A stretch of DNA of 22,560 bases, taken from the IMG/VR virus record IMGVR_UViG_3300050821_007054, positions 1-22,560 of that record; one strand, given 5' to 3'. The stretch is from a virus. The notes beneath the pieces are model-generated. The model saw only the letters and a list, made by a program, of their open reading frames with translations, had not been told where the DNA came from and did not search any database. A program made the position numbers and the translations under genes. Positions 819 through 22,479 of this stretch are shown here, piece after piece; the stretch's first letter is position 1, and each line of letters opens with the position of its first letter.

Positions 819-2501
819 ATGCCAGCTGCAACATATAATCCTTATAATAGTTCCAACGTAAATAATAGTTTTAATACTAACACTAATACACGTACTGTTT
901 TTTCGCGTGTATTGCGAGATTTGTCTAACTGGGGGATGAGTTATGATAATATGGTCATTAAAAACCGAATGGCTGTTGGTATTAATGAAGATCCGAGGGC
1001 TGCGATATCATACGGAATGTATGATTTCTTTAGCCAAAGAGCGATTGCTTCAATCATGTCTAAAAAATCAATATCTTATTTAGATAAATCGTATTTTGAC
1101 AAGAGGAGGATACTCAGGGAGTATTCTCTTAAAGACGAAATACGTGAATTTTTAACCACCATTACTGACGAAACAATTATTTTTGATAATGACAAAAATT
1201 TCTGTAAACCATCTGTCATTCCCGATTCTTATGAACAAAATGTGAAAGATAAATATCAACAAGTTTTTGAACAGATTTACACAGCCTTTGGTTTTAATGA
1301 CGGTATATCAGCATGGAATTTTATGAAAACTTTCTTGATTGATGGTTATTTATCATTCGAAATGATATATGATGATAAACAAAAAAATATCATAGGTTTT
1401 AATCAAATTGATCCTACAACAATTATACCTGGTTATGAACCAACCAGTGGAAAACATATTTGGATTCAATATCCAGAAGATCCACTTTTAAGAAGGGTTC
1501 TTTTAGATAGTCAAATTATTTATATTTCATATAGTACACATTCTGATTTTTCTGAAACATCATATGTTGAAGGATTGATCAGACCGTTTAACCAATTGAA
1601 GATACTCGAACAGACACGTATTATGTTTAATATTGTGAATGCGTCGCCTTATCAAAAATTTACTATACCTGTACAAGGTATTTCGAGGCAAAGAGCAGAG
1701 GAGCAGGTGGCACAATTGATTGCGGATTATTCAGAGGAGGTTAATTGGGATGATACCTTAGGTACAGTTTCTATCAATGGTGCAAAACATTTACCTTTAA
1801 ACAAACAGCTCTGGTTCCCAGAAGGTGAATCAGGTAAACCTGAATTTGAATTAGTATCACCACAGCAAGAAAATTTAAATGAAGCTGAAATTTTAGGCTG
1901 GTTTTATAAAAATCTAAAACGTGCTTCTAAAATTCCATTCACACGTCTTGATAATGAATCTGGAGGAGGTGCTGTTTATTCAAGTGATTCGTCTGATATT
2001 ACACGTGATGAAATAAAATTTTCAAATTTCACATCACGTTTACGCACAATTTTTAAAGAAATCATCACTAAGCCAATAAAAATACAAATGCTTATCGAGT
2101 TTCCTGAACTACGTAATGATAATAAATTTTTAAATAAAATCGGGATAGAGTTTAACACTAATGAAGAATTCCAAGAATGGAAACGATTAGCTAATTTAGC
2201 TAAAAAGGTAGAAATTGCATCCACTTTACTATCTACGTTCCAAGTAGAGGAAGGTAAACCTTATTTCCACCCATCGTACTTAGTAGATTCTGTACTTAAA
2301 TTGACAGAAGAAGAAAAACAGGCTAATCAAGCATATTTCTTGAAAGAACCACTTACAGGTTTAGCGGGGGGTAGTGAGGCTGGAGGCGGGGCACAAACAA
2401 CACAGGCGACACCTGAAGCAGGAGGTGGAGAGCAAGAAGCACCGCCAGAAACACCTGAATCAGAAGCACCAGCTGAGGGCAAAGAAGGATTTGAGTTTTA
2501 A
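819..2501 (+). CDS. gp20: portal vertex protein, T4 gp20 family
   Basis: Portal protein: it forms the dodecameric ring at one capsid vertex through which DNA is packaged and to which the neck and tail attach. At 560 residues it is close to the size of T4 gp20 (524). The most diagnostic stretch lies around residues 325-375: a WFPEGESG motif, an ELVSPQQENLNEAEI segment and then FYKNLKRASKIPFTRL. These match in order the WLPRREGG, GG-N-(x)-ED and KKLYKSL-(x)-P-(x)-RL segments of the T4 family. The last 45 residues are a Gly/Pro/Glu/Ala-rich low-complexity tail of noticeably higher GC, probably disordered. The ATG at 819 is preceded by the TAATATATAA element. An HNH gene follows the stop after only 2 nt. 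The assignment is firm; the role of the tail is unknown. Confidence 0.93.
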   Translation: MPAATYNPYNSSNVNNSFNTNTNTRTVFSRVLRDLSNWGMSYDNMVIKNRMAVGINEDPRAAISYGMYDFFSQRAIASIMSKKSISYLDKSYFDKRRILREYSLKDEIREFLTTITDETIIFDNDKNFCKPSVIPDSYEQNVKDKYQQVFEQIYTAFGFNDGISAWNFMKTFLIDGYLSFEMIYDDKQKNIIGFNQIDPTTIIPGYEPTSGKHIWIQYPEDPLLRRVLLDSQIIYISYSTHSDFSETSYVEGLIRPFNQLKILEQTRIMFNIVNASPYQKFTIPVQGISRQRAEEQVAQLIADYSEEVNWDDTLGTVSINGAKHLPLNKQLWFPEGESGKPEFELVSPQQENLNEAEILGWFYKNLKRASKIPFTRLDNESGGGAVYSSDSSDITRDEIKFSNFTSRLRTIFKEIITKPIKIQMLIEFPELRNDNKFLNKIGIEFNTNEEFQEWKRLANLAKKVEIASTLLSTFQVEEGKPYFHPSYLVDSVLKLTEEEKQANQAYFLKEPLTGLAGGSEAGGGAQTTQATPEAGGGEQEAPPETPESEAPAEGKEGFEF

Positions 2502-2503
2502 TA

Positions 2504-3130
2504 ATGTGTTTAACTAAAAAATGTATCAAGTGTGGCTCAAATAAAGCACTATCAGAATTTTACATAAAATCAAAATTGTCTGATGATACATACACTATGT
2601 GCAAGATTTGTTACAATGAAAAGAAAAGAGAATACGCATCTAAAGATTCTGTGAAGACAAAAGAAGTTAACGATCGGAAAAGTAAAAAGTATCGGGATAA
2701 AAATAAAGATAAATTAAATGCTCAATCTAGGGAATATCATAAGAAAAATTCCACAGAGATAAATAAGCGTAGGGTTAAAAACGCTAAAGAGCAATATCAT
2801 TCAGATCCTTTATATAAATTAAGTGTTAATATGAGAAACTTGATAAGAAAATCTGTTACTAGTTGTTATGGTAAAAAGGCCAAGAAGACTAACGAAATAT
2901 TAGATTGTACGTTTGAGGAATTTAAAATACATATTGAAAAACAATTTACTTCTGAGATGAGTTGGGAAAATTATGGATCTTATTGGGAATATGATCACAT
3001 CGTACCATTGTCGTCAGCTAAAACTGATAGTAATGTTATAGCACTAAATCATTATACAAACTTTCAACCGCTAGAAGTTTATATAAACAGACATGTTAAA
3101 AGTGATAGACTTGATTGGCAACGATTATAA
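2504..3130 (+). CDS. HNH homing endonuclease with N-terminal zinc knuckle
   Basis: A complete relative of the endonuclease at 106-750. Two Cys pairs (C7/C10 in CIKC and C33/C36 in CKIC) suggest a zinc ribbon. A long charged helical linker follows, then the nuclease core with D164-H165 (EYDHIVPLS), N182-H183 (LNHYTNFQPLE) and N195. The C-terminal hundred residues are strikingly similar in the two proteins, including a shared ENYGSYWE segment. The ATG lies 2 nt after the portal stop, so the gene is probably cotranscribed and translated with the portal. I see no intron structure, so it looks free-standing. Its 3' end overlaps a minus-strand remnant by 6 nt. Family assignment is strong; the target site is unknown but may lie in or near the portal gene. 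Confidence 0.85.
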   Translation: MCLTKKCIKCGSNKALSEFYIKSKLSDDTYTMCKICYNEKKREYASKDSVKTKEVNDRKSKKYRDKNKDKLNAQSREYHKKNSTEINKRRVKNAKEQYHSDPLYKLSVNMRNLIRKSVTSCYGKKAKKTNEILDCTFEEFKIHIEKQFTSEMSWENYGSYWEYDHIVPLSSAKTDSNVIALNHYTNFQPLEVYINRHVKSDRLDWQRL

Positions 3131-9611: not shown

Positions 9612-9779
9612 TACATTATATAGAAAGTTATTAACAATATGTAACTGCCTGATAGTCAAAATGTTACAATATTGCTTTTTCAAACAATTTAATTCTGCCT
9701 CCCAATATATTCCACAGTTCTCCCTAGGCATATTAGAATTAAATTGTTTTTCTATATTGCAAGTTTTACAAATTTTCAT
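9603..9779 (-). CDS. tiny CxxC-containing ORF, possible endonuclease N-terminal remnant
   Basis: A 58-codon ORF from ATG 9779 to TAG 9603, beginning MKICKTCNIEKQFN. The C-(x2)-C-N-(x)-EK pattern is typical of the N-terminal zinc knuckle that precedes HNH-type phage endonucleases, including the HNH protein at 2504. The remaining residues contain two more cysteines but no nuclease core. The ATG overlaps the end of the endonuclease gene at 9766 by 14 nt in another frame. It is either a translated small gene or the leftover 5' end of a lost HNH gene. Confidence 0.4.
   Translation of the reverse strand: MKICKTCNIEKQFNSNMPRENCGIYWEAELNCLKKQYCNILTIRQLHIVNNFLYNVFV
9682..9749. repeat. 15-bp perfect inverted repeat with 38-nt loop
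   Basis: The arm AAACAATTTAATTCT (9682-9696) has an exact reverse complement at 9735-9749. It would make a 15-bp hairpin between the endonuclease gene at 9766 and the promoter at 9580. Beyond the arms, the loop begins GCC and ends near GGC, allowing a few more pairs with a bulge. There is no T-run on the minus strand after it, so it is not a standard terminator for the minus genes. Confidence 0.6.
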
Positions 9780-10677
9780 TGATTATTATTTTATTCATTT
9801 CAGTTTCTATATCGTCTTTATAGGAAATTCGATAAAGTTTTATATCATTATTATTACAGTAACTATCTTTAATGAAATCATTTACTTTTGTTTTCTCGAA
9901 ACCGTCCATACCGCCAAAACATGTTTTCGCTTTAAAATGCTGTTCACCATCGAATTCTAAGCATATATTTAAATCTGGTAAATAGAAATCAAATGGTAAT
10001 TGATATATGTTTTTACAATCATTGAATTTGTGCTGCTCAAAATATTTTATGTTTAATGATTTTAATATTATTGAAATAAGTAATTCTCCTTTAGATTGAT
10101 TGCACTTAGGACATCCGTGTCCACGTAAATGATTATTTATTTCTTGTGTGAAATTTCCATGGTCAATGCAAATAATTGAAATTAAATCGTGTATATTTAT
10201 AAATTGAGTAACGTTAGAATAATCATAACGCGATTCATGTACTATATTTGCTCGTTTTTTAAATACATCGACAGATAATTTTTTATTCTTTGCACAATCA
10301 GCACAACCACAGCCGCCATTCATATGTGAAGAAGCACTTTGTTTAAAAATCCCGTGATCTGGACAAATAATATTAACTTTATTGTGTATACCATTTATTT
10401 CTGTGATGAGAGAATAATCGTAAAAATAATTATGTATAATATTTGAAGCCGTTATAAATTTTTTTAAAGATATAGGTTTGTTACCAGCACAATCAGGACA
10501 GCCTTGTTCTTTTCTGATATGATTATCTGGCGATTGCCAAAAATATCCATGCTCAGAGCATTCTATTTTCATTTTTTTACTAGAAGAAACAAAACTATCT
10601 GGATAATATGCAAATTTATTTCCATGTACAATTTTAGCTTGTTGTAATGTTAATTCAAATGTTTTTAGACTTATCAT
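9766..10677 (-). CDS. DUF723 zinc-repeat, Vsr/EDxHD-like homing endonuclease
   Basis: Probable homing endonuclease. Residues 1-195 hold three copies of a 55-65-residue unit with the pattern hydrophobic-(x)-A-(x)-H-(x)-Y-(x)-YS, then I-(x)-C-(x2)-HG-(x)-F, H-(x)-GCP-(x)-C, each probably binding one zinc. This is the DUF723-type repeat. Residues about 200-300 form a restriction-endonuclease-like catalytic domain: SKGELLISIIL, then FDFYLPD, then CLEFDGEQHF, then YRISYKDD, supplying E, D and E-(x)-D-(x)-QH residues as in Vsr-like or I-Bth0305I-type enzymes. Its ATG overlaps the previous stop (ATGA), so it is translationally coupled to the larger relative at 10674-11801. Family assignment is good; target unknown. 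Confidence 0.8.
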   Translation of the reverse strand: MISLKTFELTLQQAKIVHGNKFAYYPDSFVSSSKKMKIECSEHGYFWQSPDNHIRKEQGCPDCAGNKPISLKKFITASNIIHNYFYDYSLITEINGIHNKVNIICPDHGIFKQSASSHMNGGCGCADCAKNKKLSVDVFKKRANIVHESRYDYSNVTQFINIHDLISIICIDHGNFTQEINNHLRGHGCPKCNQSKGELLISIILKSLNIKYFEQHKFNDCKNIYQLPFDFYLPDLNICLEFDGEQHFKAKTCFGGMDGFEKTKVNDFIKDSYCNNNDIKLYRISYKDDIETEMNKIIINENL

Positions 10678-11801
10678 TTTATTAAATTATGTGTTGTTAA
10701 TATTTTTAGCATTTCGATATTAATATCATCTTTATAAGATATTCTATATAAAATAATATTATTCTTTATGCAATATTCTGTTTTAATATTGTCTCGAATT
10801 TTCCTGATTTTAAAATCTTCTTCTCCACCAAATCTTTTTACTGGTGTGAAATGTTGTACACCATCGTATTCTATGCATATATTTTTTCCGATTATTTTAA
10901 AATCAAAAGATAATACTTTTTTATACTTACAATCTGGAAAAGTATGTTGTGCTTTAAATAGTATATTATGTGTTGTTAAGATATTAATGATAGCATTTTC
11001 TCCAATCGAATTACAACAATTAGGACACCCTTGTCCCTGCATATGATTATCTGGTGTTTGTTCAAACTTTCCGTGTTTTAAACATATTATAGGAATACTA
11101 ATTTTAGAACCTAATATTTTATGAATTAAACTATAATCATATTTTGAATTATGTTTTTCGTTAGAAACTTGAATAAATCTTTCAATAGTGAGGGGTAAAT
11201 TTCCGCCACAATGTGGGCAACCACTTTTTCCTGTTATATGATGTGATGGTGTTTGACTAAAAAATCCATGTACACGACAATATATATTTAATGGTATTTC
11301 ATAATTAATATAATCAGCAAATGCGTACAAATATCTAGATCCATGTACATTATGTGCACGTTTTAAAAATTGTATTTTAGTCAACCCTGAAAGATATACA
11401 CCTTTTTCGTTTAAACATTTTTCACATGCACATTTTTTAATCAAATGTTGTGTAGGAGTTTGTTTTACTATCGTGCTATGTTTTTTGCACAAGAATAATA
11501 TCGGAGTCTTTGCGTCTATATAATCGATATTGTTGTAATTGAATTTATCTTCGCCCCAAACTTTTATAGCTTTTTTGATAAATATTTCTTTTAGTGTGTC
11601 AATTTGACATTTTTTACACGCACAACGTTTCTTTAAATGGTGCTTAGGTGATTGCCGCACCTCAATATTATGTTTTAAACAAATAAAAATTACAGGCTTG
11701 TGGTTGTTTATATAATCGACACTACTATAATCGAAACGATTATCACCCCATACTTTTGTTGCTCTTTTTATAAACTTTTCTTTCGATGATCTACTTGTCA
11801 T
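10674..11801 (-). CDS. DUF723 zinc-repeat, Vsr/EDxHD-like homing endonuclease, four repeats
   Basis: A 375-residue relative of the downstream gene with one more zinc repeat. The four units end CACKKC, CACEKC, GCPHC and GCPNC. The first two are more like each other (VWG-(x2)-(K/R)F-(x)-Y, then H-(x2)-KKCAC-(x)-KC) than like the last two, which suggests internal duplication. The C-terminal catalytic domain shows GENAIINIL, LSFDFKI, CIEYDGVQHF and YRISYKDD. The ATG at 11801 has a long A/T leader. The end overlaps the next start as ATGA. It is the first gene after the strand of small genes changes to endonucleases. Confidence 0.8.
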   Translation of the reverse strand: MTSRSSKEKFIKRATKVWGDNRFDYSSVDYINNHKPVIFICLKHNIEVRQSPKHHLKKRCACKKCQIDTLKEIFIKKAIKVWGEDKFNYNNIDYIDAKTPILFLCKKHSTIVKQTPTQHLIKKCACEKCLNEKGVYLSGLTKIQFLKRAHNVHGSRYLYAFADYINYEIPLNIYCRVHGFFSQTPSHHITGKSGCPHCGGNLPLTIERFIQVSNEKHNSKYDYSLIHKILGSKISIPIICLKHGKFEQTPDNHMQGQGCPNCCNSIGENAIINILTTHNILFKAQHTFPDCKYKKVLSFDFKIIGKNICIEYDGVQHFTPVKRFGGEEDFKIRKIRDNIKTEYCIKNNIILYRISYKDDINIEMLKILTTHNLIK

Positions 11802-12380: not shown

Positions 12381-14609
12381 ATGAGCATGAAACCCGTGTT
12401 AATTATTGAAAACAGTACAAATTCGTTAAGTCTTAACGAAAGTGCTGATAGTTCAGGAAAACGCAAATATGAGATGTCTGGTATTTTTACAGAATTTGAT
12501 GTAAAAAATCGGAACGAAAGAATCTACACTGCCGAAAAATTTATACCCTGCTTAAATGAGCTTAATGAGCGTATTAAAACATTTGGTATGGTATTCGGTG
12601 AATATGATCATCCAGATGTTTTTGATACATCACTTAAATGTACATCCCACATTGTAACAACAGCTTCTTTCAATGAATCTAAAAATTTAGTTGAAGGAAG
12701 TATTAGATTACTTTCGACCAAGTGGGGAAAAGAAGCCAGAAGTCTGGTAGAAGACCATTGCCCAATTTTCGTATCATCCCGTGCCGCAGGTATCACTGAG
12801 GCAGATGGGATGGTTAGTTTGAAAAAATTGTTTACATATGATATAGTAGCTGACCCGGGCTTCTCTTCCGCAAAAATGAATTTATCCAATATTAACGAAT
12901 CGTTAGGTTTCAAAAATCCTAAAGCAAATTTTAGAATTTATGAAATGAGCGATGCGTCAAAAATCAATGATGTTTTTAACATGAATAATGATGAATTAGT
13001 AACAAGAACCCAAATGACTGAATACTCTAAACACCTTATCAATGAGATTCAATCTACAAAAGCTATCGTAGAAAATGCCGTTAAAACTGGCACTATGGAC
13101 CCTTCTAAACTCAATGAATACATCGGATACTATGATGAACTTCGCGCTACTAACGAGAAGATTGTTAAATATCTTGATTATATCGCTGATAAACTTCTTG
13201 TGGCAGTTTCTGAGAATGATTCTCTAAAAGAAACTACTAACAAATTGATCGCTCACAATGATTACATTGTTGAGAATATGATAAAAGGTATTAGTTATAC
13301 TAAATATGTAGCTGAACAACTTGATAATACAATCCGATATAATGAATACATCGGAGAGAATTTAGAAAAGACTGTAAAATTCGGAGATTATCTTGCAGAA
13401 AATCTTGACAAGACAATCGAATACACAGATCATCTTTGTGAGAATTTAAATAGCTCTATTCGTTACAGTCAATATATTACTGAAAAACTTGGTAATACTA
13501 TTGAACATTCTAATGCTATATCAGAAAAAGTTGAAGATACTATCGAATATGTAGAACATGTTCGTGAGCATGTTGAAGGTGGTATTAGATACGTACAATA
13601 TGTAGCTGAACAAGTTGATGATACTATTAAGTATAGCGATTATATCGCTGAAAAACTTGATAACACACTTTCTTATTCTAAAAAAATTGTGGAAACACTT
13701 AACAATACCAAATTAATTACAGAAAGCATGGCTGATAAACTTCCTATGCCAGAAGAAGAAGGTATCTATATTATAGACGCAGAGAAAGAAAATGAAGAAG
13801 ATAAAAAGGAACCAGTTATGGGTGATGAGAATGATCACACAGCAGCAGATAATGAAACACCGAATGTGGTAGAATCTACAACTGAAACAACAGTTGTTGA
13901 AACTCCTGTGGTTGCTACCACTGAAACCATAGTGGAACAGCCAGTTATCGAAACTGCTACTGAAATCACCACAGAAGCTACTGCTGAAACAACACCTGTT
14001 GTTGCTGACCCAGTAGTTGAAAGTACACCCGCTGTGACTGAACCAGTTTCTACTGTCGTTACAGAAGTTGAAAACAAAACAAATGAATCAATTACATTAT
14101 CACAAAAAATAGATCAACTGATTACTGAGGCTAAAAAACGGAAAGCTGCAGAGACAGAGGATATACACTTCTTGAAATTCTTAAATAAGTCACAAGTAGA
14201 TAATTTCTACGCTATGACTCAGGATGATCGTGAGAAAATCGTTGCTTACATAAACGAAAAAAGCAATTACTACACAGGTACTGATGTTCTACGCTTAATG
14301 AATGAATCTCTTGCTCTTAAAGAAGAAGGTCTTGAGGAAAAGTTAGTTCGTTTAATTCCAGAAAGTATTAAACCTATCTGGGAATCAATGAACGAGTCTG
14401 CTAAGAAAGGTATTTTTTCGCAAGCTAAATTGTTCCCAACATTGAACAATGATCAAGCGATTGAACATTTTTGGTTGACTAGATCTTTAAAGAAAAATGA
14501 TACTTCAACAAAACAGATCGTTAATGAGTCTACTAAGATTTTAAATGATGATAAACTTAGTGATTCTGAGATGAATTCTATTCTTGCAAGGTTCAATTCT
14601 TTAAAATAA
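12381..14609 (+). CDS. prohead protease (gp21-like) fused to a coiled-coil scaffold region
   Basis: The N-terminal ~175 residues are a T4 gp21-type prohead protease: the early NRNERIYTAEKF segment, the catalytic His in GEYDHP (H77), Ser in VSSRAAG (S132 or S133) and Asp in YDIVADPG (D158 likely). In T4 the protease is about 212 residues. Here the chain runs to 742. Residues 264-445 are thirteen in-phase 14-residue repeats of the type Y-(x2)-YIAE-(x)-LD-(x)-TI-(x), a two-heptad coiled-coil period. Residues 470-565 are acidic and then Thr/Val/Pro-rich and disordered. Residues 566-742 are helical. I infer that the extension is the internal scaffold (gp22 role) fused to the protease. NES occurs seven times and may mark cleavage sites. 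It sits directly before the capsid gene, where T4 keeps genes 21 and 22. Confidence 0.85.
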   Translation: MSMKPVLIIENSTNSLSLNESADSSGKRKYEMSGIFTEFDVKNRNERIYTAEKFIPCLNELNERIKTFGMVFGEYDHPDVFDTSLKCTSHIVTTASFNESKNLVEGSIRLLSTKWGKEARSLVEDHCPIFVSSRAAGITEADGMVSLKKLFTYDIVADPGFSSAKMNLSNINESLGFKNPKANFRIYEMSDASKINDVFNMNNDELVTRTQMTEYSKHLINEIQSTKAIVENAVKTGTMDPSKLNEYIGYYDELRATNEKIVKYLDYIADKLLVAVSENDSLKETTNKLIAHNDYIVENMIKGISYTKYVAEQLDNTIRYNEYIGENLEKTVKFGDYLAENLDKTIEYTDHLCENLNSSIRYSQYITEKLGNTIEHSNAISEKVEDTIEYVEHVREHVEGGIRYVQYVAEQVDDTIKYSDYIAEKLDNTLSYSKKIVETLNNTKLITESMADKLPMPEEEGIYIIDAEKENEEDKKEPVMGDENDHTAADNETPNVVESTTETTVVETPVVATTETIVEQPVIETATEITTEATAETTPVVADPVVESTPAVTEPVSTVVTEVENKTNESITLSQKIDQLITEAKKRKAAETEDIHFLKFLNKSQVDNFYAMTQDDREKIVAYINEKSNYYTGTDVLRLMNESLALKEEGLEEKLVRLIPESIKPIWESMNESAKKGIFSQAKLFPTLNNDQAIEHFWLTRSLKKNDTSTKQIVNESTKILNDDKLSDSEMNSILARFNSLK
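13170..13715 (+). repeat. 42-nt coding repeat (thirteen 14-residue units) in the scaffold region
   Basis: In-frame units of exactly 14 codons follow one another without gaps, e.g. YTKYVAEQLDNTIR, YNEYIGENLEKTVK, FGDYLAENLDKTIE, YSQYITEKLGNTIE and YSDYIAEKLDNTLS. DNA identity between units is modest while the protein pattern is kept, so the repeat is old and selected at protein level. A weaker fourteenth unit may precede it from 13128. Confidence 0.85.
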
Positions 14610-14679: not shown

Positions 14680-16467
14680 ATGAGTCAAGTTAAGATTGAT
14701 AAACAAAAAGCTCTCAAAAAATGGACACCGATCCTCGAGACGCTTGGCGTTAAAGATTCCGATCGTATTGATTGGATGTCAGAGATGGCGGAATACCATG
14801 CTTTGAAAGAGAACGTAGCTTATGCTAACCAAGGTAACGTAGCTGGTTTAGGTTCCATTACTGGTGCTACTCCTGCAACAATTCCGGGCGTAACATATGG
14901 ACCAAATTATGCTGCTAATGGTGGTACAACTGGTTCTGGTGACGTTGGACAAAACTTGCTTCCAGTTGCAATGAAAATTGCAGCTCAGACTATTGGTCTT
15001 GATTTGGTAGCAGTTAAACCTTCTCCCGGTCCAAAAATCGATTTGATGTATGTAGACTTCAAATACGATGATACCCCAAACTACGATCCTACACAGTTTA
15101 AACCACAAGTATTTAAACTTCAGATCGCTGGTGTTGCTAACGCAATTCCTTCGCCTGCATCTTTAACCACTCTTGATGAGCAAGAATCTCTTCGTAGATA
15201 TCTTGAAGCAGTTATTGCTGCTGTTGGAGCTGTTGAAACAGTTGGTGGTCTTTCACTTCGTATTTTCTTAGAATTGAATGGTACTGGTGCTACTACTACT
15301 AGTAATCACCTTACTTCACACACTACTGTAACTTCGGATAAAGAGTGTAAACTCGAATTCCTTGGTTTCTCCCGTGTAGATTTACTTCCTATGTTCCGTG
15401 CTTTCCGTCAGGTAAATACTCCTACTGGTCAACCGAACTGGCAGTTTATCTCTGCTAATAACACTTTCGATTTTAGCCAAGCTATTATCACTGTTATGGC
15501 AGCTGGTTTCCACACAGGTGCAGGTTTAGTAGCTACTACTAATTCTAGTTCTGCTTCTGCTGCTTATGATGTTACCACTTTAAACGGTACTCTTAGTGCT
15601 GAATTAATTTCCGCTTTAGAAGATCACATCCCAGGATATGTATCTAACTTCACTGGAAATCTTCAGCCAATGGATCGTTTAACTGATGATCAATCATATG
15701 CTGGTGTTATTGCACCTTCTGTATCTATGCTTTCTATCGGTATCGGTACTATCGAAATCACTTCTGCTTTAAAACGCACTGAGATTGAAGATATCAAGGC
15801 TAATACTGGTATGAACATCATTCAGAAGATGGAATCTATCCTCGTTAACGAACTTTCCCAAACTATCTCTAAACAGATTGTTGCTAAAGTATTCGAAATG
15901 GGTGAAGACAATCGTCAAGCTGCTCCGGGTTACAATGCAGGTACTACTATCTTCGACTTTAACGTAGATACATATTTAGTAGGTGCACCCGGTGGCGAGA
16001 CTTCTCACGCATTGCAACGTAAACTTATCAGCAAACTTTTCAGTGCAAGTAACTTTATCGCAACTGAAGGACGAGTTGGTCCAGGTCAATACGTTGTTAC
16101 TAATGGTAAGCTTGCTGCTGTACTTATGGACATCTCTGGTTACACAATTAACCCATTGAAATCCAAAATGTCTAGCACTGGACAATTGTATCCTGTTGGG
16201 ACAATAGGGGACCTTTCTATCTATGTAGATCCTTACATGAAGTATGATGATAACCGTATGTGTATCGGTCGTAAAAATAATCCTGATCAACCTGGTATTA
16301 TTTTTATCCCATACCTTATGGCTCAGTCTATTCAGATCATCAGCGAAGCAACTTTTGCCCCTCGCATAATGTTGAGAAGCAGATACGCTGTTGCCGAAGT
16401 AGGATTCTTCCCACACAAACAGTACATGGCTATCCACGTTACTGACACTAACAACAGACTTATGTAA
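14680..16467 (+). CDS. gp23: major capsid protein precursor, T4 gp23 family
   Basis: The main shell protein, 595 residues (T4 gp23 is 521). The N-terminus KALKKWTPILETLGV matches the start of the gp23 propeptide, a helix that binds the scaffold. A likely maturation site follows L42-K43-E44, fitting the h-x-E specificity of T4-type prohead proteases. The C-terminal third shows the fold's conserved pattern: SALKRTEIEDIKANTGMN with ILVNELSQTISKQIV, then GQYVVTNGKLAAVL, IYVDPYMKYDD, GIIFIPYL and APRIMLRSRYAV. The middle (about 200-330) has Thr/Ser/Asn-rich loops and may be an inserted surface domain. Codon use is biased to CT/GT-ending codons, consistent with high expression. It has its own late promoter and a strong terminator. 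Confidence 0.93.
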   Translation: MSQVKIDKQKALKKWTPILETLGVKDSDRIDWMSEMAEYHALKENVAYANQGNVAGLGSITGATPATIPGVTYGPNYAANGGTTGSGDVGQNLLPVAMKIAAQTIGLDLVAVKPSPGPKIDLMYVDFKYDDTPNYDPTQFKPQVFKLQIAGVANAIPSPASLTTLDEQESLRRYLEAVIAAVGAVETVGGLSLRIFLELNGTGATTTSNHLTSHTTVTSDKECKLEFLGFSRVDLLPMFRAFRQVNTPTGQPNWQFISANNTFDFSQAIITVMAAGFHTGAGLVATTNSSSASAAYDVTTLNGTLSAELISALEDHIPGYVSNFTGNLQPMDRLTDDQSYAGVIAPSVSMLSIGIGTIEITSALKRTEIEDIKANTGMNIIQKMESILVNELSQTISKQIVAKVFEMGEDNRQAAPGYNAGTTIFDFNVDTYLVGAPGGETSHALQRKLISKLFSASNFIATEGRVGPGQYVVTNGKLAAVLMDISGYTINPLKSKMSSTGQLYPVGTIGDLSIYVDPYMKYDDNRMCIGRKNNPDQPGIIFIPYLMAQSIQIISEATFAPRIMLRSRYAVAEVGFFPHKQYMAIHVTDTNNRLM

Positions 16468-16625: not shown

Positions 16626-17984
16626 ATGTCAAATAAAGAATTAATATTAAATTTGGTAGGGAAAAATTCTAATAGAAGAAAAGAATCATATATAAAAAAA
16701 CATTATAACAATCTACATATTCAAATTTTAGAATACACAAAAAATATATCCGATTTACCTTTTAAACAATTATTATGGCATTTTGAAAATGAAAAATTAA
16801 ATTATATTTTTTGTGCATGCCCTAATTGTAATAATAGAGTAAATTTTTCAGAACCAAATTCGCATTATTACAAACATTGTTCACCAGCATGCTCAGGTAA
16901 TAATCCAGATACTACCGAAGCTAAATTATTTTCCACCGATCGTGATAAAAATACAGAATTAACTAAGCAAAATTTTATAAAAAAACACAAACAATATTTT
17001 ACAGAAAATAATTTAAGATTTATATCTATAAATAATACAAGTAACAAATATACATTTGAAGATCTATCGTGTAATCATGTTGTGTATGATATGCTACAAG
17101 AAACTATAAAACGTAGAATAGATAATAATTTACACGTTTGTAATATATGTAATCCATATTTTTTATTAAATCCTTCAACATCAAGTAAAAAATCAAAACC
17201 AGAACAAGAAATTTTTGATTACATAAATAGTGATTTAAAATATATAGGTGTTGATAGTGATCATTCCGTTTTGGATCGTAAGGAAATTGATATTTATCTT
17301 CCAATCCAAAAGTTTGCTATTGAGCATAATGGTGTATATTGGCACTCCGATATACATGTTAAATTTGATGAACATCAACACAAAACCATAGAATCTAACA
17401 ACAAAGGAATATCTTTATTACATATATGGGGTGATGAGTGGCTGTATAAACAAGAAATTGTTAAATCGAATATTCTATCATATTTAAACAATCAACCATA
17501 TCATAAATTCGCACAATCTTGTTTAATATATGAAGTTTCAGAGACTGAAAAATCATTCTTTTTATATAATAATCATATCGATGGTACTTGTGGTGAATCT
17601 TTAAATTTAGGGCTTTACTATCAAGGAGAATTAGTATCAATATTATGTTTGTATACTAAAAACGTCAATAATAATAAAATCGTGCGATTCGCTAACAAAT
17701 TAAATACACAAGTAACTGATTCTTTCACTAAACTATTCAAATATTTTATAGAAAATTATACATATAATAAAATAACAATTTATCATGATTTATCTAAGCC
17801 TAATATTTTACCATTAATAGAATTAAGGTTTATATATACAAATAGAATAGAACCACAACATAAATATGTAGTTAATAGTAAACGGCTTTCGTATAAAGAA
17901 TTGTCAATATCTTATATATCATATAATAAAATCTACGATTGTGGTTATGATAAATATGTTTTCACTAAACAAAACCTTCTCTAA
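16626..17984 (+). CDS. Hef-like homing endonuclease
   Basis: A 452-residue free-standing endonuclease of the Hef-like phage type. The N-terminal part has two Cys clusters: CACPNC with CSPAC (about 63-90), then CNICNP (about 171-176), probably zinc fingers for DNA binding. A PD-(D/E)XK or EDxHD-type catalytic core follows: SKPEQEIFDYI (Glu), DRKEIDIYLP (Asp) and AIEHNGVYWHSD (Glu, Asn), then a GISLLHIWGDEW segment typical of this family. The last 170 residues contain the accessory domain seen in its relatives (IVRFANKLN, SFTKLFKYFIENY). It follows the capsid gene and terminator, suggesting insertion next to a conserved target. Its stop is followed within 20 nt by a DUF723-type endonuclease. 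Confidence 0.8.
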   Translation: MSNKELILNLVGKNSNRRKESYIKKHYNNLHIQILEYTKNISDLPFKQLLWHFENEKLNYIFCACPNCNNRVNFSEPNSHYYKHCSPACSGNNPDTTEAKLFSTDRDKNTELTKQNFIKKHKQYFTENNLRFISINNTSNKYTFEDLSCNHVVYDMLQETIKRRIDNNLHVCNICNPYFLLNPSTSSKKSKPEQEIFDYINSDLKYIGVDSDHSVLDRKEIDIYLPIQKFAIEHNGVYWHSDIHVKFDEHQHKTIESNNKGISLLHIWGDEWLYKQEIVKSNILSYLNNQPYHKFAQSCLIYEVSETEKSFFLYNNHIDGTCGESLNLGLYYQGELVSILCLYTKNVNNNKIVRFANKLNTQVTDSFTKLFKYFIENYTYNKITIYHDLSKPNILPLIELRFIYTNRIEPQHKYVVNSKRLSYKELSISYISYNKIYDCGYDKYVFTKQNLL

Positions 17985-18000
17985 CCACTATAATCATTTA

Positions 18001-18930
18001 ATGCCTGTTAAACCTGTTTTGTACTCTCAATTTATAAAACATAAAAGATCTAATACTTTATACGATAAACAATCATATAAAAATATTCGAACTTCTATGG
18101 TTATGTTGTGTACGAAACATTTGCATACATATAGGCAAATTCCGCATGATCATATTAAAGGACACAATGGTTGTGAATTTTGTCAAACTGAATTTAAATA
18201 TAATAATAAAATAAAATCACACGAACAATTTATTAACGAAGCTATGATAATACATGGTGATAGATATAAATATCCTGAAAAATATAAAGGAGCAACGATA
18301 AAAATTAAGATAATATGCCCTAAGCATGGTAAATTTTATCAAAAACCATCTACCCATATCACACAAAAATCAGGTTGCCCGAATTGCTTTGGTAATATTA
18401 TAAAAACAAAAAATGAATTTATAAGAAAAGCAAACATTAAGCACAGCAATAAATATTGTTATGATGACACGAACATGGGAATTAATGGCAGAGTAAAAAT
18501 TAATATTATGTGTTTTGATCATGGAATATTTTATCAATCTCCTAAAGATCATTTGATAGGCAGAGGCTGTCCAAAATGTAAAACATCAAAAGGTGAGTTT
18601 GAAATTAGGAAAATATTAATAAAGTATTCCATAAAATTTGTAGAGCAATTTAAATTTACTGATTGTAAACATATTAATTTTTTATATTTTGATTTTAAAA
18701 TTAAAAATTTACCAATCTGTATAGAATTCGATGGCCGTCAACACACTGAACCTGTAAGTAAATTTGGAGGACTGATAGAATTTAAGAAAATAAAATTAAG
18801 AGATTCAATTAAAAACAATTATTGTCGTAGAAATAATATTAAACTATTTCGAATATCTTATAAGAATAACTTTTTAAAAACATTAAATAAAATAATTGAA
18901 TATATAAAAAATGAAAATATTAACAAATGA
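18001..18930 (+). CDS. DUF723 zinc-repeat, Vsr/EDxHD-like homing endonuclease
   Basis: A relative of the two minus-strand enzymes at 9766 and 10674. The frame is open from 17941 (GTG, then ATGs at 17947 and 17956), but these overlap the upstream gene. I prefer the ATG at 18001, 16 nt after its stop. From there (309 residues) there is one incomplete unit ending GCEFC and two full zinc repeats ending GCPNC and GCPKC. The catalytic domain follows: SKGEFEIRKIL, LYFDFKI, CIEFDGRQHT and FRISYKNN. The glutamine-histidine pair is kept, but the following residue differs from the usual F. It overlaps the next endonuclease by 20 nt and is probably a tandem duplicate of it. Confidence 0.78.
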   Translation: MPVKPVLYSQFIKHKRSNTLYDKQSYKNIRTSMVMLCTKHLHTYRQIPHDHIKGHNGCEFCQTEFKYNNKIKSHEQFINEAMIIHGDRYKYPEKYKGATIKIKIICPKHGKFYQKPSTHITQKSGCPNCFGNIIKTKNEFIRKANIKHSNKYCYDDTNMGINGRVKINIMCFDHGIFYQSPKDHLIGRGCPKCKTSKGEFEIRKILIKYSIKFVEQFKFTDCKHINFLYFDFKIKNLPICIEFDGRQHTEPVSKFGGLIEFKKIKLRDSIKNNYCRRNNIKLFRISYKNNFLKTLNKIIEYIKNENINK

Positions 18931-19849
18931 AGAATTCTTATCAAAAGCTTATAAAATAAGAAAAAATATTAAATATTTAGAGCCTTATGTTGATAATAAA
19001 ACGTTAATAAGAATGTGTTGTACTATTCATAATTATGAGTATGTGCAATCTCCTTATGGTCATCTAAGTAAAAGAAATTCATGTATTTATTGTCAGAAAG
19101 ATAGTAGAGGTTTTACAAATATCATAAAAACAACATCTGAATTTATCGAGCAATCTAAATTAAAGCACGGTGATAAATGTGATTATTCTCTTGTAAAATA
19201 TATTTCTAATATAAAGAAAGTGATATTCATATGTAATAATGGTCATCCTAATTTTAAGCAAACTCCTAAGCAGCATTTAAAAACTAAAAATCCTTGTCCA
19301 GTTTGTTCTAACAGAGAAAGAATTACAAAAACAAGATTCGTTGATGAATCTAATGACATACATGATTTTCTATACGACTACAGCAAAGTGTGTATAAATA
19401 AAAAATCTAATAATCGTTCTAAAGTTATTATAAAATGTTTTAAACACGGGTATTTTAATCAAATGATACATAAACATTTAGGTGGGCAAGGTTGTCCAGA
19501 CTGTAGGAAATCAAAAGGAGAGCTACACATAAAGAAAATATTAAAACGTTCTGATATAAAGTTCGTACAACAATTTAAATTTTTTGATTGTCGCTATATT
19601 AATCCATTATCTTTTGATTTTAAAATAGTAGACATGGATATATGTATAGAATTTGATGGTGAACAGCATTTTAATCCGATAAAAAGATGGGGCGGCTCTG
19701 ATAATTTAAATATAATTAGACTTCGTGATTCAATTAAAACCAAATATTGTCGTAAAAATGGCATAAAATTATATAGAATTTCATATAAGGATAATATTAT
19801 TTACAAAATGAAAAATATAATCAAACAAATTAAGTCAGAAATTATATAA
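18911..19849 (+). CDS. DUF723 zinc-repeat, Vsr/EDxHD-like homing endonuclease (second of tandem pair)
   Basis: A 312-residue protein with three zinc units. The first is degenerate (CCTIHNYEY, SCIYC) and the others end PCPVC and GCPDC. The catalytic domain shows SKGELHIKKIL, LSFDFKI, CIEFDGEQHF and YRISYKDN, all the expected acidic residues. It is closest to its upstream neighbour: both share KFVEQFKF or KFVQQFKF and RDSIK-(x2)-YCR. The gene starts 20 nt inside that neighbour in another frame. The second unit has NNGH in place of the usual H-G, the sort of drift expected in a homing gene. Target unknown. Confidence 0.8.
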   Translation: MKILTNEEFLSKAYKIRKNIKYLEPYVDNKTLIRMCCTIHNYEYVQSPYGHLSKRNSCIYCQKDSRGFTNIIKTTSEFIEQSKLKHGDKCDYSLVKYISNIKKVIFICNNGHPNFKQTPKQHLKTKNPCPVCSNRERITKTRFVDESNDIHDFLYDYSKVCINKKSNNRSKVIIKCFKHGYFNQMIHKHLGGQGCPDCRKSKGELHIKKILKRSDIKFVQQFKFFDCRYINPLSFDFKIVDMDICIEFDGEQHFNPIKRWGGSDNLNIIRLRDSIKTKYCRKNGIKLYRISYKDNIIYKMKNIIKQIKSEII

Positions 19850-19854
19850 GCGGT

Positions 19855-20376
19855 ATGAAACCAATCTATTTAGACTTTGAATTAGATAATATACCTGAAA
19901 AAATTAATAATTATTATAGTGATAACAGCAGAGATATAACAATTTTTAATCGTGTTAATGATTTTTTTAAAACGAATCATTATTATAAATTAACTGATAT
20001 ATCAATAGAAAAACGACTCAATATAACAATTGTAGATACCTGCTACAGCACCGAACACGAGATAAGTTATGATTTACCTTTGTATGATTATCAGGCTAAG
20101 CGAGAGGAGATTGAAGCTATAAAAACTGGCTTAGATAAACTAGTAGACGAATTGATAAATAATGAAAGTGAGTCAGTAAATCTAAATAGTGAAATCACTG
20201 ATTCTGATATGAAGATACATAATTATATTAAAGAAAATGGATACCATCTTATATATTTTACTAAAGATAATACAGGTATCACACTTAAGATAAGTGATGG
20301 ATTACATGAATTTGAATCAAATGTAATTGAAATTAATTACGATTTTATTTCGGAAAATTTTGATATTAACAATTAA
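19855..20376 (+). CDS. acidic protein of unknown function (173 aa)
   Basis: A 173-residue strongly acidic protein beginning MKPIYLDFELDNIPEKINNY. Two apparent strand-rich parts (residues about 1-80 and 125-173) flank a helical Glu-rich stretch (REEIEAIKTGLDKLVDELIN). Tyr, Asp and Asn are abundant; no Cys or membrane segment. It starts 5 nt after the endonuclease stop and ends 23 nt before the tmRNA. No family recognised. Its nearness to tmRNA makes a partner role conceivable, but SmpB features are not visible and I do not propose it. Confidence 0.65.
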   Translation: MKPIYLDFELDNIPEKINNYYSDNSRDITIFNRVNDFFKTNHYYKLTDISIEKRLNITIVDTCYSTEHEISYDLPLYDYQAKREEIEAIKTGLDKLVDELINNESESVNLNSEITDSDMKIHNYIKENGYHLIYFTKDNTGITLKISDGLHEFESNVIEINYDFISENFDINN

Positions 20377-20389
20377 ATATATATCTTTA
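20359..20389 (+). promoter_or_regulatory. host-type promoter for the tmRNA
   Basis: TTTG, 19 nt, TATCTTTA: one base off the Bacteroidota TAnnTTTG element and one base shorter than the three minus-strand promoters. Transcription would start about 5-10 nt downstream, close to the mature tmRNA 5' end at 20400. It overlaps the last codons of the preceding gene. Confidence 0.5.
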
Positions 20390-20399
20390 CAATAAATAT

Positions 20400-20812
20400 G
20401 GGGATGGCAGAATTGACAGTTACTGATCATTCTATATTAGCAAGTAGTGGGTTGTCTAGTAAACCACTTTAAAACTCTAGGTAAATGTAAACGGCAACGT
20501 TACAAACGAAATCGGCACAAAAGCCGATGTTTTAGCAGTTATGAAAAATAACTTGTTAAAACCCGCAAAAAAGCAAGTCGCTGAACTTGCTCTTGCGTAA
20601 ACAGTGAAGCACAGTAACTGTTTTAAAGTTCACAGCAAAGCCAGCAACCAGTTTTGTATTAGTCTTTTTGCTCAAAATTAAAAAGATTATTTGGTAGTGT
20701 CGAAAGCACCATAATTTTCGAATATTTTGTCAGCGTTAGAAAATACTGAATAAACTTGTAGAAAATATAGATTGGCGTGATTTGGACTCGGGATCGACCC
20801 TCGACATCTCCA
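20400..20812 (+). ncRNA. ssrA: transfer-messenger RNA (tmRNA), phage-encoded
   Basis: tmRNA rescues stalled ribosomes: it enters as alanyl-tRNA, then supplies a short message for a degradation tag. The tRNA-like half is clear. GGGGATG (20400-20406) pairs with CATCTCC (20805-20811), with the G3-U pair that specifies alanine, and A20812 is the discriminator. The T-arm is TCGGG/CTCGA around ATCGACC. CCA is not encoded. Long helix P2 pairs TCTATATT (20431-20438) with AATATAGA (20764-20771). A pseudoknot PK1 is visible: AGTGG/CCACT, with loop CTAG pairing to CTAG near 20478. About 12 nt after it comes the tag frame. Total length is about 413 nt (E. coli 363), the excess lying in the tag region. 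A terminator follows directly. Confidence 0.9.
20493..20600 (+). other. predicted tmRNA tag reading frame (35 codons plus stop)
   Basis: The frame runs from GGC at 20493 (nt 94 of the RNA; the E. coli resume codon is at nt 90) to TAA at 20598-20600. The peptide begins GNVTNE and ends AELALA, contains a basic KPAKKQ stretch, and would carry one more untemplated alanine in front. The GUAAAC before GGC is like the sequence I recall before the resume codon in Bacteroidota tmRNAs, whose tags also start with G. Two hairpins (ATCGGC/GCCGAT at 20511-20528, and GTTTTA paired with TAAAAC across 20529-20562) lie inside the frame. A shorter reading starting at GCT 20580 (AELALA only) is possible. Confidence 0.6.
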
Positions 20813-20814
20813 CA

Positions 20815-20845
20815 AAAAAGACTCAGAAATTATCTGAGTCTTTTT
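20815..20845. terminator. bidirectional hairpin terminator between tmRNA and the minus-strand array
   Basis: AAAAAGACTCAG / CTGAGTCTTTTT: 12 paired bases around a 7-nt loop, with T5 on the + strand and, read from the other side, T5 on the minus strand as well. It starts 3 nt after the tmRNA 3' end and ends 3 nt before the stop of the last array gene, so it should end both converging transcripts. Confidence 0.9.
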
Positions 20846-20847
20846 AT

Positions 20848-21159
20848 TTATGCTAATAGTTCATTAATTATTTTATTGCGTTTCTCCCAGTATATATCAT
20901 TTATATTAAATACTTTAGTAGATGATACTTGATATTTGGCTGATGCGCCGTTGAAACAATAATAATCACCGTCAATTTTATATTCTTTTGTGAGAGTATA
21001 TCGTTTTAATGTTTTATTTTTTATCACTATCATAATATATTTATCGTCAGGCTCCAACCAAGTACGGAACTTTATTTTCGTATATCCATATATATTATTG
21101 GTAGAAAAATATTTTCTGATATGCGCTTTGATAAGAATATATTGTCCGTCTGTATTCAT
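20848..21159 (-). CDS. small array protein 1, unknown function (103 aa)
   Basis: The last gene of a minus-strand array of six related small genes. It has 103 residues, many Tyr, Lys and Ile, apparently mostly beta, with KEYKIDGDYYCFNG near position 60-73 and a C-terminal end NDIYWEKRNKIINELLA. That end aligns with the shared array signature (I-(x2)-I-(x)-R, then K-I-N-E-(h)-L). Its ATG overlaps the previous stop as ATGA. The stop lies against the shared terminator. No known family, Cys motif or membrane segment. Confidence 0.7.
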   Translation of the reverse strand: MNTDGQYILIKAHIRKYFSTNNIYGYTKIKFRTWLEPDDKYIMIVIKNKTLKRYTLTKEYKIDGDYYCFNGASAKYQVSSTKVFNINDIYWEKRNKIINELLA

Positions 21160-21527
21160 TTCAATACTTCATTAATTTTTTTACTTCTTATGATTTTACC
21201 TATCTGAAATATACGTGTGAGATTTTTGTCAAACTCAGAATGATATTTTAAATATCCAGTATTATTGAACTGTATTTTGAGATAGCCAGATATATAATTT
21301 GGATTTTCTATTATTTTATATGTCTTACCGCAATCAACATCTTTTATATTCTGTGATGTGTTATAACGAACAAAAAATACATAAGATAATTCATTAGAGT
21401 GTACAGCGGAATGTATTCTAGCTCTTAGTGTTTGGTATCTTTTTTTACACATCTGCAGCTTATGTTTCATGATATACTTGTCAACAATTCGCATAGCTAT
21501 TTTAAAATCTTTAGTTTCTTTAATCAT
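21156..21527 (-). CDS. small array protein 2, unknown function (123 aa)
   Basis: The ATG at 21527 (MIKETKDFKIAM) is chosen because it overlaps the upstream stop by 8 nt (AATGATTAA), as at two other array junctions. An ATG four codons earlier at 21539 is also open. The first half is basic and helical (YIMKHKLQMCKKRYQTLRAR), the second beta-like with KTYKIIENPNYISGYLKIQF. The end, FQIGKIIRSKKINEVLK, is the clearest form of the array signature. It shares KY-(x)-(H/N)-(x)-L, then KK/NRR-type spacing with array protein 5. No family recognised. Confidence 0.72.
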   Translation of the reverse strand: MIKETKDFKIAMRIVDKYIMKHKLQMCKKRYQTLRARIHSAVHSNELSYVFFVRYNTSQNIKDVDCGKTYKIIENPNYISGYLKIQFNNTGYLKYHSEFDKNLTRIFQIGKIIRSKKINEVLK

Positions 21528-21810
21528 TGTATAACACATTACATATTTTCACTTCTCTAATAGTTTTTGATATATTAATATACACGATGTTAGTTGACAC
21601 AGGATTATCGTCAGAAAAATATATTCCATCCACGCCGTAGCCCTTATCTGGTAGAAGCATACAGATATATTTTGATATAATTTCATTATCGTTATTTTCG
21701 TATAATTTTATTCTAAGTGCTATAATAGCACTGTCGTAGATATAATTACCTGTTTTTAATATAGCTAACGAACATGCGTTTACTAATATCTCAATATCAT
21801 CATTAGTCAT
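21520..21810 (-). CDS. small array protein 3, unknown function (96 aa)
   Basis: A 96-residue protein beginning MTNDDIEILVNACSLAILKT. It has a helical first half, then YGVDGIYFSDDNPVSTNIVY and the signature end INISKTIREVKICNVLYND. The DG-(x)-YF-(x)-D turn before the signature parallels DGDYYCFN of array protein 1. Its ATG overlaps the previous stop by 8 nt, and its own end overlaps the next gene the same way. No family recognised. Confidence 0.7.
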   Translation of the reverse strand: MTNDDIEILVNACSLAILKTGNYIYDSAIIALRIKLYENNDNEIISKYICMLLPDKGYGVDGIYFSDDNPVSTNIVYINISKTIREVKICNVLYND

Positions 21811-22102
21811 TTAATATATTATTTAAGTTATCTTGTCTGATAAATTTTGCAATATCTATTTTTATATTATATTTTTTGTAAGTATTTCCACCAATTTCTG
21901 TAAAAAATACATGAGTAATATTATTACTATTTGCATTTGAAAAACATATAACAGCATATCTATATTTATATGTAAATAATTGCCTAATTTCATATTTTGA
22001 TATATTGTCATGATGCCATATATAATTATTTGACATACAATAATTTTTAAATACACTTATGATAGCACCAATGTCTTTTTTGCAATATCCTGTATTACTC
22101 AT
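21803..22102 (-). CDS. small array protein 4, unknown function (99 aa)
   Basis: A 99-residue protein beginning MSNTGYCKKDIGAIISVFKN. It is rich in Asn, Tyr and Ile, with a strand-like middle (RYAVICFSNANSNNITHVFF) and the signature end IKIDIAKFIRQDNLNNILND. The ATG overlaps the preceding stop as ATGA. Array genes 3 and 4 share the last residues ND before the stop, which are also encoded by the overlap with the next start. No family recognised. Confidence 0.7.
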   Translation of the reverse strand: MSNTGYCKKDIGAIISVFKNYCMSNNYIWHHDNISKYEIRQLFTYKYRYAVICFSNANSNNITHVFFTEIGGNTYKKYNIKIDIAKFIRQDNLNNILND

Positions 22103-22479
22103 TGTAACAATTCTTTTATTAAATCATACCTCATTATTTTTTTAATTTCTAAATTATGTGTTCTGGATATTGGGCTTGTTTTACCACGATCATTATCATA
22201 AATATAATAATACTTACCAATCGTATACGATTTAGCTCGAAATATATTATTAACGTCTTGTGGCCGTTCTACAAAAGTTTGGATTATAATATAATCGAAG
22301 CTATTATAATCAATATATTTATTTTTATTATATCTAATTAATTTACCATTTACAAAAGTCATTTGTTGGTGAAAACTTTTAATAAAAGTTTCACGTCTAT
22401 TTTTTGATATATTTAAATTGTGATTAGTTATGTAACCATCAATATATTTTACTATTATATCAACCATTTCTTTAGTCAT
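22099..22479 (-). CDS. small array protein 5, unknown function (126 aa)
   Basis: A 126-residue protein beginning MTKEMVDIIVKYIDGYITNH. The N-terminal helix pair (VKYIDGYITNHNLNISKNRR) parallels array protein 2 (VDKYIMKHKLQMCKKRY). Then come AKSYTIGKYYYIYDNDRGK and the signature end LEIKKIMRYDLIKELLQ. The ATG overlaps the partial upstream gene by 8 nt (CATGACTAA). It is the longest complete member and the best one to search with. No family recognised. Confidence 0.72.
   Translation of the reverse strand: MTKEMVDIIVKYIDGYITNHNLNISKNRRETFIKSFHQQMTFVNGKLIRYNKNKYIDYNSFDYIIIQTFVERPQDVNNIFRAKSYTIGKYYYIYDNDRGKTSPISRTHNLEIKKIMRYDLIKELLQ

Follow-up and report, generated by a model that had tools for sequence, protein, structure and literature searches.

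We find that a phage genome fragment encodes a one-piece tmRNA whose tag is almost certainly a genuine 35-codon reading frame. The fragment, hereafter the window, is the whole 22,560-nucleotide IMG/VR record IMGVR_UViG_3300050821_007054. The tag is not an isolated long tag: it is a member of a family conserved among related phages, and is probably a dedicated phage signal.

The tmRNA gene (ssrA) lies at 20400-20812 (+), is 413 nt long and does not encode the CCA end. The sole Rfam match that cmscan returns in the window is RF00023 at 20400-20815 (+) (82.5 bits, E 6.4e-31, for a gathering threshold of 47 bits), and it spans the full model, 1-374. An earlier note on this DNA had recognized a phage tmRNA by eye, citing its acceptor stem, G3-U pair, T-arm, P2 and PK1, and had proposed running Infernal and ARAGORN on it; the Rfam match bears out this identification, and ARAGORN calls no tmRNA in the window. 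The acceptor stem (GGGGATG 20400-20406 / CATCTCC 20805-20811) forms 7 of 7 pairs and contains the G3-U pair, the identity element for alanylation. The discriminator A at 20812 falls exactly where the note had placed the end of the gene, giving a mature body of 20400-20812. The P2 helix, TCTATATT (20431-20438) with AATATAGA (20764-20771), is paired in the cmscan alignment, which also includes the T-arm TCGGG-ATCGACC-CTCGA (20788-20804). The pseudoknot PK1 (20446-20484) combines AGTGG/CCACT (20446-20450/20464-20468) with an 8-bp second stem, TTGTCTAG/CTAGGTAA (20452-20459/20477-20484), and its score was reached by none of 60 shuffles. On the 3' side, the conserved motif ATAAACTTGTAG (20750-20761), common to the loci L134, L140, L182, L155 and others, served to find relatives. 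An intrinsic terminator, GACTCAGA-aatta-TCTGAGTC-TTTTT (20820-20845, +), follows the gene. A possible Bacteroidota-type promoter (TTTG 20359-20362 (+), a 19-nt spacer and TATCTTTA 20382-20389) ends about 11 nt ahead of the RNA, a weak call given the AT-rich region.

The window T-loop, ATCGACC, fails the canonical TTCGANT, its first base (position 54) being A and not U, which is perhaps why ARAGORN misses the gene; the program likewise calls no tmRNA in L134, L135 and L140. The irregular loop looks like a clade trait and is not a ground for excluding the RNA from the tmRNAs. The T-loops of the huge phages LR745206 (GGCGGTA; L127 10140-10520) and LR756504 (TGTCGTAA; L134 1501-1857) are more irregular still, which suggests a relaxed T-loop in the phage clade of the window.

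The tag frame runs from GGC at 20493 to the TAA at 20598-20600 (+) and encodes GNVTNEIGTKADVLAVMKNNLLKPAKKQVAELALA; the remaining two frames across the region contain stops. As PK1 is paired here, the resume codon lies 8 nt after it, and not about 12 nt as first described. Its context, TAAAYGRCRAC, is common to independent relatives at a similar distance from the tmRNA 5' end, and this recurrence in other phage tmRNAs fixes the tag start at 20493. A start at 20580, which would leave a tag of six residues and which the earlier note had named as a result that would overturn its reading, is rejected on the conserved resume context and on coding-type variation along the whole frame. By codon usage, only this frame fits the structural genes of the window: its mean log-odds is +0.36, while the two alternative frames score -0.59 and -0.38. 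The frame also holds a predicted RNA hairpin, ATCGGC-acaaaa-GCCGAT (20511-20528, +), retained with altered pairs in L182 (TCGGA/TCCGA) and L221 (GTTGGC/GCTGAC). The canonical tag recognized by ClpX carries a C-terminal LAA; the window tag ends ELALA, with no LAA or MAA. An AlphaFold model of the peptide is mostly helical, at a confidence too weak for interpretation (pLDDT 64), and the peptide is absent elsewhere in the related phage genomes searched.

The genes that adjoin the tmRNA are those of a T4-like phage: a portal protein (gp20; 819-2501 (+), PF07230, E 8.5e-61), a head-maturation protease (12381-14609) and a major capsid protein (14680-16467 (+), PHROG 138), about 3.9 kb downstream of which the tmRNA is found. 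In tblastn, the top matches of the capsid protein are huge phages of 634-735 kb at 47-57% identity: LR756502 (57%), LR745206 (55.5%), then LR756504 and LR756501. A huge-phage survey places all of its largest genomes in the Mahaphage clade and, where they exceed 634 kb, predicts Bacteroidetes as their hosts (PMC7162821). The window phage may well be a T4-like huge phage akin to this clade, with predicted Bacteroidota hosts.

Other features of the window deserve mention. Seven endonuclease-like ORFs (endonuclease VII, HNH, homing or treble-clef types) crowd its structural region, at 106-750, 2504-3130, 9766-10677, 10674-11801, 16626-17984, 17941-18930 and 18911-19849, some assigned by family match and others by visible similarity. 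Just past the tmRNA terminator, 20848-22479 (-) holds five consecutive small ORFs of 96-127 aa that end alike (INELLA, INEVLK, CNVLYND, NNILND and IKELLQ) and may be diverged paralogues arranged in tandem. An ORF with a GmrSD_N domain (PF03235; 4007-5245 (-)) lies in a minus-strand block between the portal and protease genes.

Homologous tags occur in related phages. A 508-kb IMG/VR phage (L182), retrieved by the 3'-domain motif and not by tag sequence, carries the tag GNVITNEVGSLSDILSVLAKSKTTATQVEELEIA, about 45-47% identical to that of the window, or 53% in another alignment where the gaps fall differently. When the window tag was compared with those of L182, L221 and L220, none of 5000 shuffles did as well. 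The 634-kb phage LR745206, reached by blastn from L182, encodes GNVNEVVTREDLVAALQNNMLLVEEPATV 2.5 kb downstream of its capsid gene, and LR756502 encodes DNVSEVGTREDIVSALQNNMISVGDLAVA at the corresponding place downstream of its own. After two more pattern scans this group, family B (GNV.NEVG...), comprised 16 distinct genes with tags of 29-36 aa, found in "Mahaphages" of 634 and 642 kb and in IMG/VR contigs of 482-508 kb, including the 482-kb phage L221. Its conserved element is GNV.NE[VI]G...D[LVI]..[VA]L, of which GNV.NE[VI]G...D shows little or no variation (in part as set by the search patterns), with C-termini such as ELALA, ELEVA or EELEIA.

A second group, family A (AEDIMSIPTSLT[RK]G..VFA...ELA.AA, 26-29 aa), is found in many large contigs of up to 365 kb, and the 735-kb phage LR756501 has a 33-aa version of it, GDYKMNAEDMMSIPTSLTGKVATESFVEDLVLA; LR756504 carries a 24-aa tag. 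The residues imposed by the search patterns were AEDIMSIPT in family A and GNV, TNE.G and D in family B, and the decisive tests rest on other residues or on genes found without the tag. Homology between the two families was considered through three apparent bridges (L203, L140 and L211), with shuffle p-values of 0.1 to 0.6; the families were kept separate and, as judged by their sequences, are apparently unrelated. Among the 32 long-tag genes collected, the acceptor stem pairs 7/7 with G3-U in 31, while other pairs vary; because the stem search favoured G3-U, it is the full 7/7 pairing that carries more weight, and the 32nd gene (L161) starts too near its contig end. The tag frame is intact in all 32, only genes with 15-45 open codons having been admitted to the collection.

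Direct searches of the phage collection recovered little: tblastn with two of the tags matched nothing, tblastn with a 30-aa family-B tag matched only LR745206 and LR756502, and blastn of the window tmRNA gave only chance-like matches to the terminator and 3' flank. The AED pattern had only 4 matches across 84,980 genomes of bacteria and archaea, none with a tmRNA context.

Several of the relatives carry peculiarities of their own. The tmRNA of LR756501 (L140 1861-1248 (-)) is interrupted within the T-loop by a 229-nt stretch matching group I introns (1493-1265; Rfam Intron_gpI, 96 bits). Once the exons are spliced together the T-arm is regular, CAGGG-TTCGAAT-CCCTG, and the tag frame has 33 codons. 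A GOLLD RNA (287 bits) lies beside tRNA genes in LR745206 (L138 2540-2945), the family-B tmRNA being elsewhere in that genome. A 99.7-kb contig (L162 4532-4940) has another, unrelated 21-aa tag, GNTFAKLAALGLTKEAGVTVA. The PK1/resume segment GGTTCAAAACAATAAATGC is near-identical between the Streptomyces phage BillNye (L283 601-637) and the family-A loci L155 and L160, whose tags are unrelated to that of BillNye, reflecting either horizontal exchange or convergence.

Variation within the families is of the coding type. Family A has a pS of 0.52 and a pN of 0.22 with the seeded residues excluded, and family B a pS of 0.49 and a pN of 0.26 from column 4 to the end. Diversity at the three codon positions is 0.11/0.11/0.48 in codons 10-18 of family A and 0.24/0.33/0.57 in the last eight codons of family B; it is less clear in the last seven codons of family A (0.40/0.40/0.48). 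No comparable periodicity is seen in the upstream or downstream flanks of the tags. The tags therefore read as translated-type sequence under purifying selection and not as a by-product of RNA structure, in line with the 35 open codons originally described. On this evidence from sequence comparison, the long tag is truly protein-coding, and related phages keep its amino-acid sequence. That the added codons serve RNA structure only, or that the gene is a decaying pseudo-tmRNA, is very improbable and largely refuted: the hairpins within the tag frame and the off-consensus T-loop position 54 speak for it, but the coding-type variation is confined to the frame, the frame is kept throughout the long-tag collection, and acceptor stem, G3-U, P2 and PK1 are intact.

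We surveyed 15 phage records for proteins that might act with the tag. SmpB is encoded in seven, six of which have long tags (LR745206, LR756502, LR756504, LR756501 and the L182 and L221 phages); the exception is Lak-A1, whose tag is 10 aa long although it encodes both SmpB and ClpP. Of the eight records without SmpB, LR756500 likewise has a tag of 10 aa and the rest are IMG/VR contigs, mostly fragmentary. The SmpB proteins pass the NCBIfam cut-offs where scanned, and the basic tail is present in LR745206, LR756502 and the L182 phage. These same three phages also encode a ClpP with Ser-His-Asp triad motifs and a double-AAA+ Clp protein (701-709 aa) whose VGF loop is of the ClpP-docking type, and thus hold SmpB, ClpP and a Clp unfoldase together; the window record, at 22.6 kb, is too short to show its own set. 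The scores of the AAA+ proteins fall short of the NCBIfam equivalog cut-offs, and it is their architecture and VGF loop that point to the ClpC/ClpA type. LR756504 additionally encodes ClpX.

The association between long tags and this module is imperfect, not strict. LR756501 has a long tag and no ClpP match, and its AAA+ protein lacks the VGF loop, presumably as a ClpB-type chaperone would. The L221 phage combines a family-B tag and SmpB with a weak ClpP-like match only and no Clp unfoldase match, and the 349- and 365-kb family-A contigs have no SmpB match and no convincing ClpP. Lon is encoded in none of the 15 records. In Lak-A1, a ClpX-like ORF of 735 aa (L307 602-2809 (-)) has a long insertion between the ClpX halves that looks like an intein.

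The best explanation in our view is a functional, alanine-accepting, one-piece phage tmRNA whose long tag would hand nascent chains to a Clp machine owned by the phage. That the tag redirects chains towards particular proteases is plausible, the circumstantial evidence being the SmpB, ClpP and Clp unfoldase genes of tagged relatives. During infection, the tmRNA would enter stalled host ribosomes with SmpB, which related genomes encode, add an alanine and 35 residues to the nascent chain, and release the ribosome. The short host degron ending in [LM]AA would thereby be replaced by a bipartite signal, in which a conserved and possibly helical N-terminal and middle element would confer specificity or act as an adaptor, while the hydrophobic C-terminus would engage the unfoldase. 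Tagged chains would then go to the phage ClpP and its ClpC/ClpA-type unfoldase, instead of or alongside host ClpXP, and amino acids and ribosomes would be recycled for the phage. We infer such a largely phage-owned tag-and-degrade route from the tmRNA anatomy, the coding tag, the homologous tags and the genes co-encoded in relatives; because the association is imperfect, we give this mechanism about an even chance. Against it, host ClpX could recognize the ELALA end, which remains hydrophobic. More tentatively, huge phages of Bacteroidota may possess an orthogonal trans-translation system, with their own long-tag tmRNA, SmpB, ClpP and unfoldase and a mark read only by phage machinery, for which at least two apparently unrelated tag families would have evolved in different phage groups.

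Alternatively, the tag could work as an ordinary degron for host ClpXP on a longer linker, with only its last few hydrophobic residues being important and its N-terminal part serving as a spacer that aids engagement. The window end ELALA and the ELAIAA and ELAFAA ends of family A do resemble LAA/LVA-type degrons, and there are family-A contigs without SmpB or a convincing ClpP of their own. Spacers need no conserved sequence, however, yet the family-B core is invariant or close to it, in part through the search patterns, and no sampled Bacteroidota tag has an end like the ELEVA, EELEIA, EEPAMV or ELELV of many family-B tags. We consider this reading unlikely, if still a serious one.

It is more improbable that the tag is an address or a functional peptide that protects, localizes or sequesters rescued chains, or blocks host ClpXP, with no role in degradation. 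The departure of family-B C-termini from LAA, the strongest conservation falling on the N-terminal and middle parts and the helix predicted at low to moderate confidence would suit such a function, but many tags keep hydrophobic, alanine-rich ends, Clp machinery is co-encoded in relatives, and the motif has no other copy in the phage genomes. A switch to Lon or to another non-Clp host protease is a shade less probable again. It has a precedent in the 27-residue tag of Mesoplasma florum, AANKNEENTNEVPTFMLNAGQANYAFA (PMC9097571), which is read by Lon (PMC9382460). The similarity of the window tag to this peptide is at the level of chance (14% of shuffles as good, p 0.14), it has no NYAFA end, and none of the phage records provides a Lon, though that of the host could serve.

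Tags of tmRNAs are usually seen as short, interchangeable LAA degrons. That phage RNAs which have diverged widely keep the amino-acid sequence of long ones implies a specific reader. If this reader is the phage's own Clp machine, as we favor, these viruses would encode a private protein-turnover route, the question of why phages carry tmRNA would become directly testable, and new pairs of degron and protease would follow. Annotation based on ARAGORN misses or misreads many phage tmRNAs, and the huge-phage tmRNAs of Al-Shayeb 2020 were called with that program (PMC7162821).

Compared with the one-piece tmRNAs of RF00023, the window RNA is alike in its G3-U acceptor stem, T-arm, P2, PK1, resume codon, tag frame and stop, and differs in having 35 codons instead of the usual 9-10, an off-consensus T-loop and no ARAGORN call. 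We also read 52 loci from 148 genomes of the phylum of a Bacteroidales genome (G017), 30 of them top-scoring and most others low-scoring, a sample and not a census. ARAGORN gave 48 tags of 9 or 10 aa, two loci (L372 and L378) were read by hand and two had no call, so that 50 of 50 readable cellular tags have 9-10 aa and end in [LM]AA. The 20-aa tag that ARAGORN assigns to L372 is a miscall, its frame GGCGAAACAACTTACGCCATGGCTGCTTAA giving 9 aa, and the tag of L378 was read as GENNYALAA by motif. These cellular tmRNAs resemble that of the window in their one-piece form, in a first tag residue of G, D or A and in overall length, but no long tag occurs in the sample. As they reach about 400 nt with tags of 9-10 aa, the excess of about 50 nt over E. 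coli tmRNA, which the earlier note had attributed to the tag, is not diagnostic.

The same note took both the length and the sequence of the tag to be new. Its length lies at the upper edge of the published range of 8-35 aa (PMC8012679), the commonest being 10 aa (PMC11915505, a 2025 tmRNA database), and is not in itself new; the new part is the sequence-conserved families of long tags in huge phages, for which we found no description in the open-licence literature, itself weak evidence of absence. Phage tmRNAs as such, with SmpB in related phages, are already reported for huge phages (Al-Shayeb 2020, PMC7162821), and phage-encoded tmRNA or SmpB for other phages too (PMC9004378, PMC4131195); the accessible parts of these three papers do not mention tag families or long tags. 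Among other phage tmRNAs with tags of more than 10 aa, that of BillNye reads as 20 aa and that of Bacillus phage G as 13 aa, their sequences being unrelated to the window's (39% of shuffles as good for BillNye). Mesoplasma florum offers a cellular parallel, in which a longer tag likewise replaces the usual short LAA tag; that tag has another sequence, a NYAFA end and a Lon-based route, whereas the window tag ends in ELALA.
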